From contig NZ_CP032094.1 of the NCBI RefSeq assembly GCF_003544875.1, forward strand, positions 62,001-126,000: a DNA stretch of 64,000 nt. Reading direction: 5' to 3'. The DNA comes from Vibrio alfacsensis (GTDB taxonomy: Bacteria > Pseudomonadota > Gammaproteobacteria > Enterobacterales > Vibrionaceae). Numbering within the stretch: the first letter of the stretch is position 1; the number at the start of each line of letters is the position of its first letter. Shown here piece after piece: positions 3-21,374 of this stretch. The notes below the pieces were generated by a model, which saw only the letters and a list, made by a program, of their open reading frames with translations, made no database searches and was not told the DNA's origin. The position numbers and the translations under genes are program-made.

Positions 3-2051
3 GTTGCACGTGCATACCACCAAACACAAGATGCACAGGTTAAACAGGAACTTAAAGACGCTTTCATTCTTATGAGTGAGCACGCTTTGGACCAAGGTTT
101 CCAAGATGGTGCATCTCTGGTTGCACTGCACCACTGGGGCTACACAAGCCGTGGTTGGTATGCATCGCTACTTTTGATGGAAGACGTATTGAAAGAAGCA
201 GGTCTGTTCCAGGCGACATTCGATTCTCTTCTATGGTCTGCACGTGAATTTAAAGAGCGTGGCTTTGATATGCGTGTTGGTCCTAAATCTTCTGACATGG
301 ACTACTGGAACACACTAGCGCGTGCTCACTTGATCATGCTGGTTCTTGAAATTGATCCAGACAAGCGCGTTGCACTGCTTAAGAAGTACGGTCAATTCGC
401 ATCTGGCAACCTTGCGCAAACTCCGGCGGGTTATGCGGATGGTTTCCGTCCAGATGGTACAGCATGGCGCCACCGTGGTAACTACCCAGGCTATTCTTTT
501 GCTGCAATGGACGGTGCGGCGCACGTTTCATACATGTTGCACGGAACGCCATTTGCGTTGACACAAGAAGCACGTGATTACTTGAAATTAGCATTGCTGT
601 CGGCACGTCTTTACAGCAACCCGAACCCATCAGTTTCTGTGATTGGTCGTCGTCCATTCTTCAAAACATCGATTAAGAAAGTATCAGATGGTATGTTCTG
701 GTTAGCGATGTCTAATGGCGCAACGGTAGATACAGAACTTGCAGCTGCTTATCTACGTGCTCTAGATCTAACCACAGAAGATGGTAAAGAAATCTTCGGT
801 ATTGATGTCGCACCAGAAGCACACCCACAAGGTAACTACACATTCAACTATGCGGCGATGGGCGTTCACCGTTGGGGTGACAACATGGTTACAATGAAAG
901 GTTGGAACCGTTACGTATGGTCGTCTGAAATCTACCACAACGCGAACCGATACGGTCGTTACCAGTCACACGGAACGGTACAAGTTCAGAAGTGGGGTGA
1001 AGACCACACTTGGGGTTACGATGAAAAAGGTTGGAACTGGAACCGCGTTCCAAGTGCAACAACGATCAATTTGCCGTGGAAATACCTAGACGCTGCACGT
1101 CAACATACGACGATGATGCAGAATAACCTACGTTTCAACGGTGCAACGAACCTTGATAACAAGTATGGTGCGTTTGGTTTCCAACTAGAAGTGCCAGAGA
1201 TGTTTGCTCGTAACTTCCCTCAACACTATGACGGCAGCTTTACGTTCAAAAAATCTGCGTTTGCATTTGATGACCGTATCGTAATTGTTGGTAGTGATAT
1301 TTCGAATAGCCGCGACCAGTACGAGACAGAGACTACGTTGTTCCAACTTGGTATTACGGAAAAATCAGATTCGCTAAATGTGAATGGTGAGCAAATCACA
1401 GCGTTCCCATACAAAGCGACGTTGCAAGAGGGTGAATGGCTAATCGATGGTATGGGTACGGGTTATTACGTTTTAGACGGTGGTGAAATTGAAGTTCGTC
1501 GTCAAGAGCAAGAATCTCGTGATAACCAACAGCGTAAACCAACCAAAGGTAACTTCCAATCGGCTTGGATTAAGCACGGTAAAGCACCGAGTGGCGCAGA
1601 GTATGAGTACTTAATGGTACTTGATGCAACACCTGAGAAGATGGCGGCTATCGCAGAATCTATGAAAGATTCTGATACCAAACCATATGAAGTGATCAAG
1701 AAAGACAGCAACGTTCACGTTGTTAAAGATAAAGCAACGGGTGTGACGGGTTACACAGCGTTCAAATACGCGCGTGTCGGTGACGAGTTCATTCGTTCAA
1801 TCAGCTCTTCTTCTGTCGTGATGACTCAGATGCAAGGTGAGACGCTTAAACTCAGTGTCGCTAACCCAGACCTTAATATGGAAAAAGACACACTATCTAA
1901 AGAAGTCCCAACATCGGTGACTCTAAATGGTAAGTGGGAATACAATGGTAGCGATGAGCGCGTTTCTCTGAAGAACAAAGGCTCTCGTACTACGGTGACG
2001 TTTATCTGTAAAGACGGCCTACCAATTCAGGTCGATTTAAAGAAAGCTTAA
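3..2051 (+). CDS. PL8 chondroitin/hyaluronan lyase, 5' truncated by the window
   Basis: Family 8 polysaccharide lyase, the secreted enzyme that cuts chondroitin, dermatan or hyaluronan by beta-elimination into 4,5-unsaturated disaccharides. The frame is open from base 3, so the Met at 72 is internal and only about the last 680 residues of a roughly 1000-residue family are visible. Counting from that Met, H134 (nt 471), Y141, R193 and E286 (nt 927) fall at offsets 0, +7, +59 and +152. These match the known catalytic set of Proteus chondroitinase ABC I (H501, Y508, R560, E653). HHWGYTSRGWYA and WGEDHTWGYDEKGWNWNR are further PL8 hallmarks. The C-terminal third is the beta-sandwich part. A strong terminator follows, so this is the last gene of its transcript. 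The sulfatase and aga-type PTS nearby suggest chondroitin/dermatan sulfate as substrate; ABC-type specificity is inferred. Confidence 0.93.
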   Translation, partial: VARAYHQTQDAQVKQELKDAFILMSEHALDQGFQDGASLVALHHWGYTSRGWYASLLLMEDVLKEAGLFQATFDSLLWSAREFKERGFDMRVGPKSSDMDYWNTLARAHLIMLVLEIDPDKRVALLKKYGQFASGNLAQTPAGYADGFRPDGTAWRHRGNYPGYSFAAMDGAAHVSYMLHGTPFALTQEARDYLKLALLSARLYSNPNPSVSVIGRRPFFKTSIKKVSDGMFWLAMSNGATVDTELAAAYLRALDLTTEDGKEIFGIDVAPEAHPQGNYTFNYAAMGVHRWGDNMVTMKGWNRYVWSSEIYHNANRYGRYQSHGTVQVQKWGEDHTWGYDEKGWNWNRVPSATTINLPWKYLDAARQHTTMMQNNLRFNGATNLDNKYGAFGFQLEVPEMFARNFPQHYDGSFTFKKSAFAFDDRIVIVGSDISNSRDQYETETTLFQLGITEKSDSLNVNGEQITAFPYKATLQEGEWLIDGMGTGYYVLDGGEIEVRRQEQESRDNQQRKPTKGNFQSAWIKHGKAPSGAEYEYLMVLDATPEKMAAIAESMKDSDTKPYEVIKKDSNVHVVKDKATGVTGYTAFKYARVGDEFIRSISSSSVVMTQMQGETLKLSVANPDLNMEKDTLSKEVPTSVTLNGKWEYNGSDERVSLKNKGSRTTVTFICKDGLPIQVDLKKA

Positions 2052-2150
2052 TCACTCACCATAGATAAGCATGACAAGCACCTTTAGTCGTGATGCTGAA
2101 CAGTTAAGAGATAAGTGATCGGTTAAACGATTCTATGGGTGGTTTATAAA

Positions 2151-2180
2151 GGCTCTAAGTTTAAGAACTTAGAGCCTTTT
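2151..2180 (+). terminator. Rho-independent terminator after PL8 lyase
   Basis: An 11-bp perfect stem (2151-2161 with 2166-2176), a four-base loop and a T run starting at 2177. It closes the PL8 transcript about 100 bases after the stop. Confidence 0.85.
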
Positions 2181-2410
2181 ATTTTGCAATTAATACCGTT
2201 TCCTAATACGTCATACTACTGAACAATTTGGGTCATTTAGTAACATTCTTTACCCTGACTTCATCAACCAATGTTTAGAAGTTTCCATTGTGGTCTCCTT
2301 TTGTAAAAGTCGGAACCCTATCGCTATGGCTGTGAGGGCGGTCTGTAGTGGTCTAATAAAGCCGGACACCATTTTAGGTGGTACAGTTACCACCCCAAGA
2401 GAGGTGTTTT

Positions 2411-2716
2411 ATGACCAGAGTTCGTCGTACATTTAGTCCAGAGTTCAAGCAAGAAGCTGCAAGCTTAGTGCTTGACCAAAATTACACTGTTTTAGAAGCG
2501 AGTAGAGCTGTTGATGTGGGACAAACTGTCTTACGCCGTTGGGTTGAGCAGTTAAAATCTGAGCGTAGCGGGATAACTCCTACTTCTAAAGCATTGACGC
2601 CTGAGCAGCAAAAATTCAAGAGCTTGAAGCCCGCATTAGCCGTTTGGAGCGAGAGAAGTCTATTCTAAAAGGCCACAGCTCTCTTAATGTCGGACGAACT
2701 CGAACGTACACGCTGA
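2411..2716 (+). pseudogene. IS3-family transposase OrfA, frameshifted
   Basis: Helix-turn-helix DNA-binding subunit of an IS3-type transposase. MTRVRRTFSPEFKQEAASLV starts at 2411 after a GAGAGG ribosome site and continues into TVLEASRAVDVGQTVLRRW. The leucine-zipper part (IQELEARISRLEREKSIL) is found only in another frame, because the A run near 2612-2617 is one base short. A second break near 2663-2668 precedes the family-typical KATALLMSDELERTR ending, recoverable to a TGA at 2714-2716. The second A run is too short (A4G) to be the usual A6G programmed slip site. Confidence 0.8.
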
Positions 2717-20163: not shown

Positions 20164-20174
20164 TAAGGTAACTT

Positions 20175-21251
20175 ATGTTTACGAAAGAACATGTACTAAC
20201 TCAAATGAAACGAGTGTACCAGTATCAACGTGACAATCAGACTCGCTCTGTTATTCGTCGCAGCGGTGCCACTCGATTCATTAAAGATACTGACTGGGAA
20301 CGTGGTGTATTTTGGTCATGTGTTTCTGCGGCTTGGTTAGCAACGGATGACAGTGAATATCTAGATGGTGTAATGAATTATGCACTACACACGGGTTTCC
20401 GCACGGGGTCATTCCCTCGTTTCGCAGACGATCATGTTTGTGCTAATGCTTATCTAGACGTTTATCCAGTTGTAAACATTCCAGAAGCATTAGAAGCAAC
20501 AATCAAAGCATTTGATATCATGGTCAATGAACCAAAAGAAGGCCACAAAGATTGGTGGTGGGTAGACTCTCTATTCATGGCTCCGTCTGCGTTTGCTTCT
20601 TTGTCGAAAGTTACCGGTGATAACAAGTACGTTGATTACATGAACACGGCTTTCTGGGATTCAGTTAACCACTTATTCGACTCAGAAACTGGATTGTACT
20701 ACCGTGACTATCGATACATGCCTACAGAATTAGGTCAAAAGTATCGTGATGAGTTTGGTGAAGGTGGTGCTGAATTCCGTGAAGCGAATGGCGAGAAAGT
20801 TTTCTGGTCACGTGGCCTTGGTTGGATGCTCGCTGCGGTTCCACGCATCATCGAGCGTATGCCAGAAGATTTCAAAGAACGTGATCCTTACATTGGTATA
20901 TTCGTTAACCTTGCTAAAGAAATTGTTAAATATCAGCATGAGGATGGTTTCTGGCGTGCAAGCCTTCTAGATCCTGAATCGTTCCCTGCTCCTGAATCCA
21001 GTGCAACATCTTTGTTTGTTTATGGTTTGGCATGGGGTATCAATAACGGTCACCTAGATGAAGAAACATACCTTCCAATTGTCTTGAAAGCGTGGGAAGC
21101 GTTAGAAACGTCTATCCATGATAATGGCATGATTGGTTGGGTGCAGTTACCAGCATTCAACCCTCGTGATGTTAAGTTCGAACACAACATCGACTACGGT
21201 GCAGGTGCTTATATCCTAGCTGCGATTGAATGTTCTAAGTTAGCTCGATAG
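20175..21251 (+). CDS. GH105 unsaturated glucuronyl hydrolase
   Basis: A 358-residue cytoplasmic (no signal peptide) alpha6/alpha6-barrel enzyme that hydrates and releases the 4,5-unsaturated uronic acid from lyase products. Family marks: RFADDHVCANAYLD (D85/D86), WWWVDSLFMAPSAFA (D131), KVFWSRGLGWMLAAVPRI and DGFWRASLLD. These resemble GH105 (YteR/YesR) more than GH88, the family usually linked to glycosaminoglycans. Last gene of the PTS operon and followed by a strong terminator. The inferred substrate is the unsaturated chondroitin disaccharide brought in by the PTS, perhaps phosphorylated on GalNAc. Confidence 0.85.
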   Translation: MFTKEHVLTQMKRVYQYQRDNQTRSVIRRSGATRFIKDTDWERGVFWSCVSAAWLATDDSEYLDGVMNYALHTGFRTGSFPRFADDHVCANAYLDVYPVVNIPEALEATIKAFDIMVNEPKEGHKDWWWVDSLFMAPSAFASLSKVTGDNKYVDYMNTAFWDSVNHLFDSETGLYYRDYRYMPTELGQKYRDEFGEGGAEFREANGEKVFWSRGLGWMLAAVPRIIERMPEDFKERDPYIGIFVNLAKEIVKYQHEDGFWRASLLDPESFPAPESSATSLFVYGLAWGINNGHLDEETYLPIVLKAWEALETSIHDNGMIGWVQLPAFNPRDVKFEHNIDYGAGAYILAAIECSKLAR

Positions 21252-21343
21252 CGAGATCTTTAAACAAAGGTAATGTAATCGTCGAATGTCGTTTGAATGA
21301 ATATTATTGCTTACATTTAAATCGACATTCTTCAGGAATAAAG

Positions 21344-21374
21344 GACCGAACGTGAGAACGTTCGGTCTTTTTTT
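21344..21374 (+). terminator. Terminator of the agaR-PTS-kdu operon
   Basis: GACCGAACGT (21344-21353) pairs exactly with ACGTTCGGTC (21358-21367) around GAGA, followed by seven T. Ends the long operon. Confidence 0.92.

Follow-up and report, generated by a model that had tools for sequence, protein, structure and literature searches.

A probable chondroitin sulfate catabolic island of Vibrio alfacsensis with a predicted phosphorylating disaccharide importer

Introduction

In a 2022 review, the chondroitin sulfate (CS) operon of Proteus vulgaris is described as containing ChABC I and II, a putative sulfatase, an unsaturated glycuronyl hydrolase, a putative PTS, and catabolic genes (PMC9067506). 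A PTS mutant of Streptococcus agalactiae neither grew on hyaluronan nor imported the hyaluronan disaccharide (PMC6837340). A ptsH mutant of Proteus mirabilis has a growth defect on CS-C, which the authors explained by the release of GalNAc (PMC13289894).

The DNA analysed here, referred to as the window, is a stretch of 64,000 nucleotides from Vibrio alfacsensis. Judged from its sequence, its first third probably belongs to a CS catabolic island with a phosphorylating importer and intracellular digestion of disaccharides. Related bacteria commonly have this gene arrangement, part of which has been published; it is a known kind of system rather than a surprise. The preliminary description had regarded the Gram-negative setting as new. 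This does not hold, as a similar layout has been published for P. vulgaris (PMC9067506), Vibrio alginolyticus has a published PTS locus for hyaluronan (PMC8222515), and the complete or partial operon is present in 69 loci, retrieved with EIIC as the only query, from ten gammaproteobacterial families.

Gene content and regulation

Profile searches of the window ORFs recovered all gene families named earlier, far above chance (Table 1). The locus had been called complete-looking, which is right for these families; the PL8 gene is truncated by the window edge, agaS is a broken frame, and KbaY, KdgK, and Eda are encoded outside the window. No gene begins at position 3, the proposed start of the locus: the PL8 gene, of 996 aa, opens at L002:11061, 940 bases ahead of the window edge, and the window encodes its final 682 aa. 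The proposed end at 21374 agrees with the terminator-like hairpin adjoining that coordinate, a kind of site present 8 times in the region as against 8.6 in shuffles.

Table 1 Features of the locus in window coordinates
Feature	Position	Strand	Evidence
PL8 lyase, 3' part, chondroitinase ABC I type	3..2051	+	PF09093/PF02278/PF02884
Transposase pieces	2378..3567	+	PF01527, PF00665/PF13683
810-aa protein, lipoprotein-like by eye, ZirU/Ig-like region	4348..6780	-	NF040485 ZirU 47 bits, cut-off 100 not reached
OprD-family outer-membrane porin	6846..8420	-	PF03573 29.6 bits, cut-off 25 (weak)
DUF6250 protein, signal-peptide-like start by eye	8531..9253	-	PF19763 199.7 bits
Sulfatase, predicted CS/DS 4-O-sulfatase	9263..10852	-	PDB 6j66 887.7 bits over residues 10-529
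Divergent intergenic region, CTTTC/GAAAG boxes	10853..11230		Candidate AgaR operators
AgaR, DeoR-family repressor	11231..12019	+	NF040755 406 bits, cut-off 260
KbaZ, non-catalytic subunit of tagatose-1,6-bisphosphate aldolase	12071..13348	+	TIGR02810 632.7 bits, cut-off 568.8
AgaS, galactosamine-6-P deaminase/isomerase family, frame-broken	13368..14348	+	TIGR02815 444.6 bits, cut-off 529.2
PTS EIIB, mannose family, LHGQV active-site histidine motif	14549..15046	+	TIGR00854 166.9 bits, cut-off 163.6
PTS EIIC (AgaW type)	15097..15882	+	NF040757 314.9 bits, cut-off 300
PTS EIID	15845..16756	+	NF040760 253.6 bits (cut-off 500), TIGR00828 234.7 (cut-off 292.75), both below
PTS EIIA (AgaF type)	16865..17302	+	NF040761 168.4 bits, cut-off 130
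N-acetylhexosamine-6-P deacetylase (NagA/AgaA)	17304..18479	+	TIGR00221 307.9 bits, cut-off 225.65
KduI, 5-dehydro-4-deoxyglucuronate isomerase	18479..19309	+	NF002091 451.6 bits, cut-off 250
KduD, 2-dehydro-3-deoxygluconate 5-dehydrogenase	19399..20163	+	TIGR01832 404.9 bits, cut-off 338.85
Unsaturated glucuronyl hydrolase, closest to GH105	20175..21251	+	PF07470 247 bits
Terminator-like hairpin closing the operon	21340..21371	+	14 pairs, T tract

The catalytic domain of the PL8 part in the window gave a match of 251 bits, and the best PDB match of the full gene is the P. vulgaris chondroitin ABC lyase I (7eip/1hn0, 829.5 bits). The genes of KbaY (the catalytic aldolase partner, about 29 kb upstream of agaR), KdgK, and Eda fall within contig C2:44284-46856, some 15-18 kb to the left of the window, alongside those for a sulfatase maturase, two sulfatases, and two further PL8 lyases, the whole reaching up to 28 kb upstream. 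The PL8 gene is separated from the rest of the island by the transposase pieces (orfA-like, 2378-2668; integrase core, 3136-3567), which by reading are of the IS3 type and form an interruption outside the pathway, and by the lipoprotein-like gene, of which a relative at 37 % is present in locus L072. The OprD porin, with relatives in 2 of the 69 loci, is a candidate entry route for oligosaccharides. The DUF6250 protein (4 of 69 loci) was modelled with a pLDDT of 87.4; the predicted jelly-roll fold and the Foldseek matches 1oq1 (galectin-like) and 4b1m (CBM66) make it a candidate carbohydrate-binding protein.

Both a GAG-PTS locus and a GalNAc (aga) operon can be recognized. The former is represented by a PL8 lyase, a full EIIA-EIIB-EIIC-EIID set and, in the same operon as the PTS, a cytoplasmic-type hydrolase; the latter by AgaR, the frame-broken AgaS (below cut-off), KbaZ (685 bits to PRK15458, under the cut-off of 707), AgaA, of which the substrate is by context GalNAc-6-P, and an aga-type PTS. 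A domain search of part of the ORFs at the locus detected no SusC or SusD domains. The active-site motifs GH of EIIA and LHGQ of EIIB are present in the window and in 67/67 and 68/69 relatives, respectively, counts for which regular expressions alone gave 51 and 2, the misses being read by eye (L059 had been extracted in a wrong frame).

The region between the sulfatase gene and agaR contains 14 CTTTC/GAAAG boxes where 1.49 are expected; none of 1000 first-order Markov sequences reached 14. The probable targets of repression by AgaR are the operons of the sulfatase, the PTS, and the lyases. A sigma-70 scan of this gap yielded no promoter-like site, and no match to AgaR was obtained within the fetched stretch of the closest relative, L072.

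Linkage of the PTS to the hydrolase

In 68 of the 69 loci, the hydrolase gene follows that of EIIC at a distance of 1.4-5.5 kb and in the same orientation, the sole exception (L069) ending at a contig end; all ten genes from KbaZ to the hydrolase are present in 42. A look at other Vibrio genomes, as had been proposed, showed that, among 118 of the same genus, hydrolase matches of 524 bits or more occur in six, and EIIC matches of 236 bits or more in the same six and no others. Another 32 genomes carry a more distant EIIC (at most 211 bits) without such a hydrolase. In a tree of EIIC plus EIID, 74 hydrolase-linked rows and 24 others are separated by one split (SH-aLRT 100) that 0 of 500 shuffles reached; the two sets stem from separate searches, except for five hydrolase-linked rows that were labelled by hand from match coordinates. 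The 24 other same-genus loci, with an EIIC 38-46 % identical, have no adjacent hydrolase and no strong match to it in their genomes; AgaS is encoded beside the PTS in 20 of them, and all are on the opposite side of the tree. In five same-genus loci, taken for the hyaluronan type, AgaS is missing from the surroundings of the PTS; these loci share the EIIC/EIID side and the hydrolase of the window. The 69 loci from ten families suggest that PTS-based use of chondroitin and hyaluronan is a widespread gammaproteobacterial strategy and not a speciality of Firmicutes.

The unsaturated glucuronyl hydrolase

Only one PF07470 gene was found in the genome, namely the last gene of the PTS operon. By a crude hydropathy measure, no export signal was seen on the hydrolases of the 67 loci examined: the highest 10-residue N-terminal value was at most 1.13, as compared to 1.24-1.86 in 43 sulfatases, ranges that nearly touch and for which the hydrolase starts were chosen by hand. 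As it lacks a hydrophobic start, the enzyme is probably cytoplasmic.

Its structure model (pLDDT 92.7) and its sequence are closest to a GH105 member, the ulvan hydrolase of PDB 4ce7, with which it is about 32 % identical and shares the catalytic Asp and a WSRG.GW motif. An assignment to GH88, as in the streptococcal UGL, was rejected: in Foldseek, 4ce7 (E 3.7e-24, TM 0.85) ranked far above the S. agalactiae enzyme (best E 5.4e-9, TM 0.66-0.71), and phmmer listed 10 hits with E values of at most 10, none of them a UGL chain. Family labels are mixed, since the next hits, 4q88 and 5noa, are called "family 88" by their depositors and relatives at NCBI are named GH88, GH105, or GH88/105. The PTS-linked clade differs from 4ce7 by an inserted N-terminal segment and by arginines that few or none of 118 4ce7-like proteins share and that may bind a 6-phosphate. 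We tentatively propose, as an idea somewhat short of probable, that this GH105-like gammaproteobacterial clade is a separate class hydrolysing 6-phosphorylated unsaturated glycosaminoglycan disaccharides, with a new arginine pocket for the 6-phosphate (R24, R28, R34, R43, R76, R224, and R331 of the window protein) common to the chondroitin and probably the hyaluronan versions. If so, a phospho-uronyl hydrolase clade stands where streptococci pair GH88 with a PTS. Whether the hydrolase needs a 6-phosphate on its substrate has become a sharp biochemical question that can now be tested.

Proposed route and alternative explanations

Secreted PL8 lyases would, by homology, cut CS into unsaturated oligo- and disaccharides, which would cross the outer membrane, possibly via the OprD-type porin, while exported sulfatases would strip sulfate outside the cytoplasm. 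PTSs phosphorylate what they import. The mannose-family PTS would thus take up the unsulfated disaccharide and phosphorylate it, with C6 of GalNAc as the likeliest site, and the cytoplasmic GH105-like enzyme would split the product into unsaturated uronate (DHU) and GalNAc-6-P. The latter would be processed by the deacetylase, AgaS, and KbaYZ and DHU by KduI, KduD, KdgK, and Eda. Gene content and order, a hydrolase without export signal, the twin-arginine motif of the sulfatase, and the linkage of the hydrolase to the EIIC lineage can be read directly from the DNA. The earlier proposal that the PTS imports the disaccharide and GH105 splits it inside is partly supported and is the best-supported reading: the hydrolase lacks an export signal, is the sole PF07470 gene found, and travels with one EIIC/EIID branch.

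A version of this reading, overlapping with it in likelihood, is that GalNAc and the disaccharide both enter through the PTS; this is a real possibility, if not the expected one. As EIIC and EIIA pass the N-acetylgalactosamine models AgaW and AgaF, the PTS may accept free GalNAc, perhaps as its only substrate. Growth of P. mirabilis HI4320 on GalNAc also depends on ptsH, and just one PF03609 EIIC, that of this operon, is encoded in strain ATCC 29906; if HI4320 likewise has one mannose-family EIIC, the PTS may carry GalNAc. The defect of the ptsH mutant on CS-C and the single EIIC of ATCC 29906 also speak for disaccharide import, as does the S. agalactiae PTS mutant; the defect is indirect evidence, because ptsH affects every PTS. 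Disaccharide import offers a reading of this published puzzle, the ptsH-dependent growth of P. mirabilis on CS.

Decay and inactivity of the island in this strain is rather unlikely. Frame switches in the assembly affect agaS, one PL8 gene (PL8-A), and the maturase gene (twice), a nearby RND efflux pump is split over three overlapping ORFs, and transposase pieces lie inside the island; with agaS, one PL8, and the maturase broken, this copy may not work. In agaS, the TIGR02815 match spans profile positions 2-288 of 372, the frame shifts near 14260, and similarity runs on in another frame to about 14520: the relative in L054 aligns with 13371-14258 in one frame and with 14261-14515 in another, that in L016 likewise, and the first match of L072 extends beyond the break. 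However, the agaS break and the first maturase break adjoin short stretches of A, as would be consistent with assembly indels, and the genome additionally encodes one FGE-family and two more SPASM proteins.

That the PTS takes up free GalNAc only is improbable; the disaccharide would then be split outside the cytoplasm or have a different importer, and the kdu genes would serve a uronate that enters separately. The GalNAc models and the PTS-dependent growth of P. mirabilis on GalNAc would suit this, but the one PF07470 hydrolase found, without export signal, ends the PTS operon, the 24 other same-genus loci without adjacent hydrolase sit on the other side of the tree, and the five AgaS-less loci combine the same EIIC/EIID side with the same hydrolase.

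Desulfation

The sulfatase in the window (domain match 162 bits) has a sulfatase fold with a CxPxR site (CTPFR), a twin-arginine start (PF10518 TAT 20.8 bits, under the cut-off of 22.7) and, by eye, a lipobox-like cysteine, and it resembles a 4-O-type sulfatase exported as a Tat lipoprotein. Its closest solved match, over almost its whole length (888 bits), is the CS/DS 4-O-endosulfatase 6j66, presumably from Vibrio sp. FC509. An endo or exo mode cannot be assigned from this likeness, as a pair of enzymes 83 % identical differs in mode (PMC6581707). Weak similarity makes a 6-O-sulfatase no more than a guess. The twin-arginine motif and CxPxR were present in 43/43 readable 4-O-sulfatase orthologues (2 more were unextracted), which points to desulfation before import and narrows the question of sulfation state left by the preliminary description. 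Of the two upstream sulfatases, one scores above the cut-off of the Pfam TAT model and the second starts, by eye, with a Sec-like leader. Photobacterium sulfatases convert sulfated disaccharides to the unsulfated one (PMC8819143). Import of sulfated disaccharides followed by desulfation inside is very improbable: ABC-type PL8 lyases act on sulfated chains and the sulfatase genes adjoin those of the PTS, but these export signals and the Photobacterium enzymes argue against it, and a 6-sulfate would block the position phosphorylated by the PTS (as argued in PMC6837340).

Comparison with known systems

The CS operon of P. vulgaris has the same kind of gene content (PMC9067506), and ten fetched Proteus loci have KbaZ-AgaS-IIBCDA-AgaA-KduI-KduD-GH in the same order. 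These loci are without a close 4-O-sulfatase orthologue (sulfatase match 25-27 %), whereas the OprD porin and the DUF6250 protein are extra in the window. In the hyaluronan locus of V. alginolyticus LWW-9, PL8 lyases, a four-subunit PTS, an unsaturated glucuronyl hydrolase, and monosaccharide genes are clustered as in the window; its substrate is hyaluronan (GlcNAc) instead of chondroitin (GalNAc), its hydrolase is named GH88, and the description, as far as available, is without an aga branch (PMC8222515). The hydrolases of the five same-genus loci taken for this type are 63-65 % identical to that of the window.

The aga/gam (GalNAc) operon of E. coli shares AgaR, KbaZ, AgaS, AgaA, and an aga-type PTS with the window but imports monosaccharides, and a hydrolase, kdu genes, a lyase, and a sulfatase are not described there in the accessible part of the source (PMC3668189). 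The GAG-PTS of S. agalactiae likewise combines a mannose-family PTS with an unsaturated glucuronyl hydrolase and uronate genes in a cluster; import was shown there with a mutant (PMC6837340). That organism is Gram-positive, its hydrolase belongs to GH88, and its isomerase and reductase are DhuI and DhuD (PMC12838403).

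Gene content and predicted substrate

The families named in the preliminary description, from the PL8 lyase to the unsaturated glucuronyl hydrolase, were all confirmed by NCBIfam and Pfam scans. The PL8 at the left edge of the window is the 3' part of a 996-aa gene with chondroitin ABC lyase I as its best solved relative (829.5 bits), and the window sulfatase matches the CS/DS 4-O-endosulfatase 6j66 with 887.7 bits. These two relationships make chondroitin/dermatan sulfate the most likely substrate of the island. For the DUF6250 protein adjoining the sulfatase, a jelly-roll fold is predicted that resembles those of CBM66, galectin and GH16-type proteins; 35 further relatives were found, and those with names are mostly from Vibrio and Photobacterium.

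The genome comprises 4.91 Mb in 3 contigs, and the window covers C2:62001-126000. Just upstream of the window sits a group made up of a class II aldolase, a PfkB kinase, sulfatases and one SPASM protein; more members of these families were found elsewhere. With KbaY, KdgK (344.5 bits, under the cut-off of 400), Eda and others upstream, every step predicted between the polymer and central metabolism has a candidate gene, apart from a dedicated tagatose-6-P kinase. PfkB matches in the genome number 11.

Features of the island and its surroundings (L002 and L108 are stretches of the window's own contig C2, left of the window; G000 is its genome)
Feature	Location	Strand
Sulfatase, DUF6250 protein, OprD-type porin, large lipoprotein-like gene	window, from 10852 downward	minus
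DUF6250 protein	window 8531-9253	minus
agaR, kbaZ, agaS, EIIB, EIIC, EIID, EIIA, hexosamine-6-P deacetylase (in this order)	window, from 11231	plus
kduI, kduD, PF07470 hydrolase, 14-pair terminator-like hairpin	same run, after the deacetylase	plus
Second half of the island	G000:C2:33741-46856 (L108:3741-16856), left of window
Tat sulfatase, CBM9 protein, PL8, anaerobic sulfatase maturase, second sulfatase, DUF2264 (in order)	from C2:33.7 kb
KbaY (503.5 bits, cut-off 443.55), KdgK, Eda (280.8 bits, cut-off 241)	next after DUF2264
Broken RND pump, autotransporter-domain protein, PL8-A, PL8 running into the window	right of Eda
Frame break, agaS	window 13368-14525	plus
Frame break, PL8	L002:7916-11016
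Frame break, maturase	L108, about 9795-11014
Frame break, RND pump	L002:670-3818
EIIB-EIIC gap hairpin	window 15057-15078
NagB glucosamine-6-P deaminase	window 22503-23303	opposite to the locus
Large surface-type proteins	window 39083-48042
Likely beta-glucan (laminarin) locus	window 48213-62455

NagB adjoins the locus. Farther to the right, Ig-like, CBM4/9 and CarboxypepD-like domains occur in a set of large surface-type proteins, which are accompanied by a 1030-aa protein with no Pfam match; a likely beta-glucan (laminarin) locus with an MFS sugar transporter, two GH16, a GH3 and a LamB porin follows.

Several genes of the island are broken. The agaS gene switches frame near 14260: proteins of two relative loci (L054 and L016) each align partly in one frame and partly in another, with the junction at that position; AgaS of relatives is intact (63 of 64 ORFs of at least 368 aa). 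Frame changes also occur in PL8-A and, twice, in the sulfatase maturase, and the RND pump consists of three overlapping ORFs. All broken genes fall within about 25-40 kb, and the breaks may be either assembly indels or genuine decay. A suspected break in an Ada/AlkA gene (window 26148-27994) was rejected, the second ORF being a separate methyltransferase.

Distribution among relatives

Using EIIC as the sole query, 69 loci were collected from genome contigs, a set biased to its close relatives because the search patterns were derived from the window EIIC. They belong to Vibrionaceae (29), Morganellaceae (13), Pasteurellaceae (9), Psychromonadaceae (5), Hafniaceae (4), Enterobacteriaceae (3), Yersiniaceae (2), Endozoicomonadaceae (2), Budviciaceae (1) and Psittacicellaceae (1). 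Genes were counted by tblastn of the window proteins at 60 bits or more. The hydrolase was matched in 68 of 69 loci, on the same strand in all 68, the exception (L069) lying at a contig border. IIB was matched in all 69, IID in 68, IIA in 67, KbaZ and AgaS in 64 each, AgaA in 58, KduD in 47 and KduI in 46; a sulfatase of any kind was present in 64, and in 45 at 50% identity or more. PL8 (18/69), DUF6250 (4) and OprD (2) were rarer. Each locus spans at most 10 kb per side and some are trimmed by contig ends; because of this, a missing PL8 or KduI is no proof of absence. The complete ten-gene set from KbaZ to the hydrolase was found in 42 loci. AgaR was matched in 67, all except L066 and L072; the latter, from Vibrio fujianensis and the closest relative of the operon, has no AgaR match between sulfatase and KbaZ. 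Salmonella arizonae and diarizonae (L027, L033) carry a reduced form of sulfatase, AgaR, PTS and hydrolase, with KbaZ, AgaS, AgaA and kdu genes unmatched within the fetched stretch.

Substrate of the PTS

Three lines of evidence, namely location, co-inheritance and phylogeny, bear on the question of whether the PTS carries the DISACCHARIDE; all are associations rather than transport assays. As to location, the N-terminal hydropathy of the hydrolase is 1.13 at most in 67 of the 69 loci (L069 and L075, from which no protein was extracted, were left out) versus 1.24-1.86 for the sulfatase leaders, a crude comparison with hydrolase starts picked by us. A genome search for PF07470 also yielded no protein other than this hydrolase. 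As the hydrolase has no leader-like stretch and is the sole family member found, its substrate must enter the cytoplasm.

Co-inheritance was followed in 118 same-genus genomes. The hydrolase was matched in 12, strongly (at least 524 bits) in six and weakly (29% identity) in the other six, and EIIC in 38, the six best of which are precisely the six strong-hydrolase genomes. Loci were obtained for 29 of the other 37 EIIC genomes. In 24 of these 29 the PTS is unlinked to a hydrolase; AgaS adjoins it in 20 of the 24 and the hydrolase in none. One unlinked genome (G057) has a weak 29% hydrolase match on a separate contig.

In an EIIC+EIID tree of 98 rows (the 69 loci minus L069, with L067 entered twice, plus the 29 same-genus loci; window excluded), a single branch with an SH-aLRT of 100 parts 74 hydrolase-linked from 24 unlinked rows. 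Linkage changes once on this tree versus a mean of 21.8 times in shuffles (quick method). Five same-genus loci, retrieved by the search that also gave the unlinked ones, group on the hydrolase side; their fetched DNA ends before the hydrolase, and they were labelled by us from match coordinates, which place it 1.4-1.6 kb beyond EIIC. No AgaS adjoins their PTS, and they are presumed to be of the hyaluronan type. Our reading is that the PTS substrate is the disaccharide, perhaps GalNAc too.

Sulfation state and predicted phosphorylation at import

Among the 45 close 4-O-sulfatase orthologues, all 43 readable ones have a twin-arginine start and CxPxR. The TAT match of the window sulfatase is slightly below the Pfam cut-off; of the upstream sulfatases, one is above the Pfam TAT threshold and the other has a Sec-like leader, as judged by eye. 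According to the accessible part of PMC8819143, the Photobacterium 4-O and 6-O enzymes turn unsaturated disaccharides into the unsulfated one. The export signals together with this activity indicate that sulfate is likely removed before import; phosphorylation, too, would require a free C6. Sulfatase maturation is probably available to the strain: C2:677663 encodes an FGE-family protein, and the genome has three SPASM proteins, including the frame-broken maturase of the island.

The histidine motifs of EIIA and EIIB are retained, and the deacetylase belongs to a family that works on a 6-phosphate. Inspection of the operon genes revealed no hexosamine kinase. In S. agalactiae, a PTS mutant could no longer import the hyaluronan disaccharide, and transfer to C6 is argued for in the accessible part of that report (PMC6837340). 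A search of the open-licence PMC literature for a direct test of disaccharide phosphorylation in Gram-negatives found none, and the accessible parts of PMC2764856, PMC8306027, PMC12838403 and PMC12269599 contain no Gram-negative PTS test. The nearest work, as far as its accessible part goes, is on P. mirabilis, in which the fitness of a triple mutant including agaV was not impaired in the urinary tract. The single PF03609 EIIC of P. mirabilis ATCC 29906 is located in this operon; the mutant strain is another one, HI4320.

The hydrolase and a candidate phosphate pocket

The AlphaFold2 model of the hydrolase (pLDDT 92.7) best matches GH105 protein 4ce7 (E 3.7e-24, TM 0.85), followed by 4q88 and 5noa (both labelled family 88 by their depositors) and then by YteR-type GH105 proteins. 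The GH88 UGL of S. agalactiae ranks far lower (best E 5.4e-9, TM 0.66-0.71) and a sequence search up to E 10 returned no UGL. On this basis a GH88 UGL identity was rejected for the hydrolase, although relatives are labelled now GH88, now GH105 by databases and depositors, and the V. alginolyticus paper names its enzyme GH88. In these loci an enzyme closest to GH105 thus takes the place that the GH88 UGL has in streptococci.

From the best 120 of 7993 matched proteins, 118 4ce7-like ones were contrasted with 72 PTS-clade hydrolases for residues that are basic in at least 90% of the clade and in less than 20% of the 4ce7-like proteins. The clade arginines (n = 72) include R24 (70 R, 2 K), R28 (72), R34 (70), R43 (72), R76 (70 R, 2 K), R224 (72) and R331 (72), with R28 and R34 in an inserted segment; K12 and H337 show the same contrast. 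GH88 UGL recognises a 6-sulfate via an arginine and a C-terminal loop, and R331 is located in a C-terminal loop of comparable kind. Sequence conservation weakly supports the clade residues as a candidate 6-phosphate pocket.

Regulation

The sulfatase-agaR gap holds 14 CTTTC/GAAAG boxes in 378 bases (1.49 expected; a count matched by none of 1000 Markov sequences), and 8 lie in 313 bases upstream of the autotransporter-PL8-A genes (0.90 expected; 0/1000). Counts were not significant upstream of KbaY (3 boxes, 1.17 expected, reached in 120/1000), before the maturase (284/1000) or before the second sulfatase (283/1000). None of 13 other gaps tested had comparable strength; two unrelated ones, at 41.4 and 44.2 kb, had counts reached in 37 and 41 of 1000. 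A scan with what we take to be the E. coli AgaR consensus gave one match with 3 and one with 4 mismatches in or at the sulfatase-agaR gap. These were given little weight because others are scattered over the window and upstream and because mononucleotide shuffling served as the sole control (9.6 expected per 64 kb); the box counts are clearer. We infer that AgaR is the common regulator.

A sigma-70 scan of 10800-21600 gave 6 promoter-like sites versus 22.2 in shuffles, none of them in the sulfatase-agaR gap, and window 1-24000 contains no RNA element at gathering score. The EIIB-EIIC gap has a strong 9-pair GC hairpin. It was rejected as a conserved element: the MFE is below -8 kcal/mol in 16 of 69 loci and the sequence is unshared among 11 compared.

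Comparison with known layouts

The hydrolase is the part worth experimental study. The PTS layout itself is already known from print: according to the accessible parts of the reports, a like layout has been published for P. vulgaris, its PTS being termed putative (PMC9067506), as has a Vibrio hyaluronan locus with a PTS (PMC8222515).
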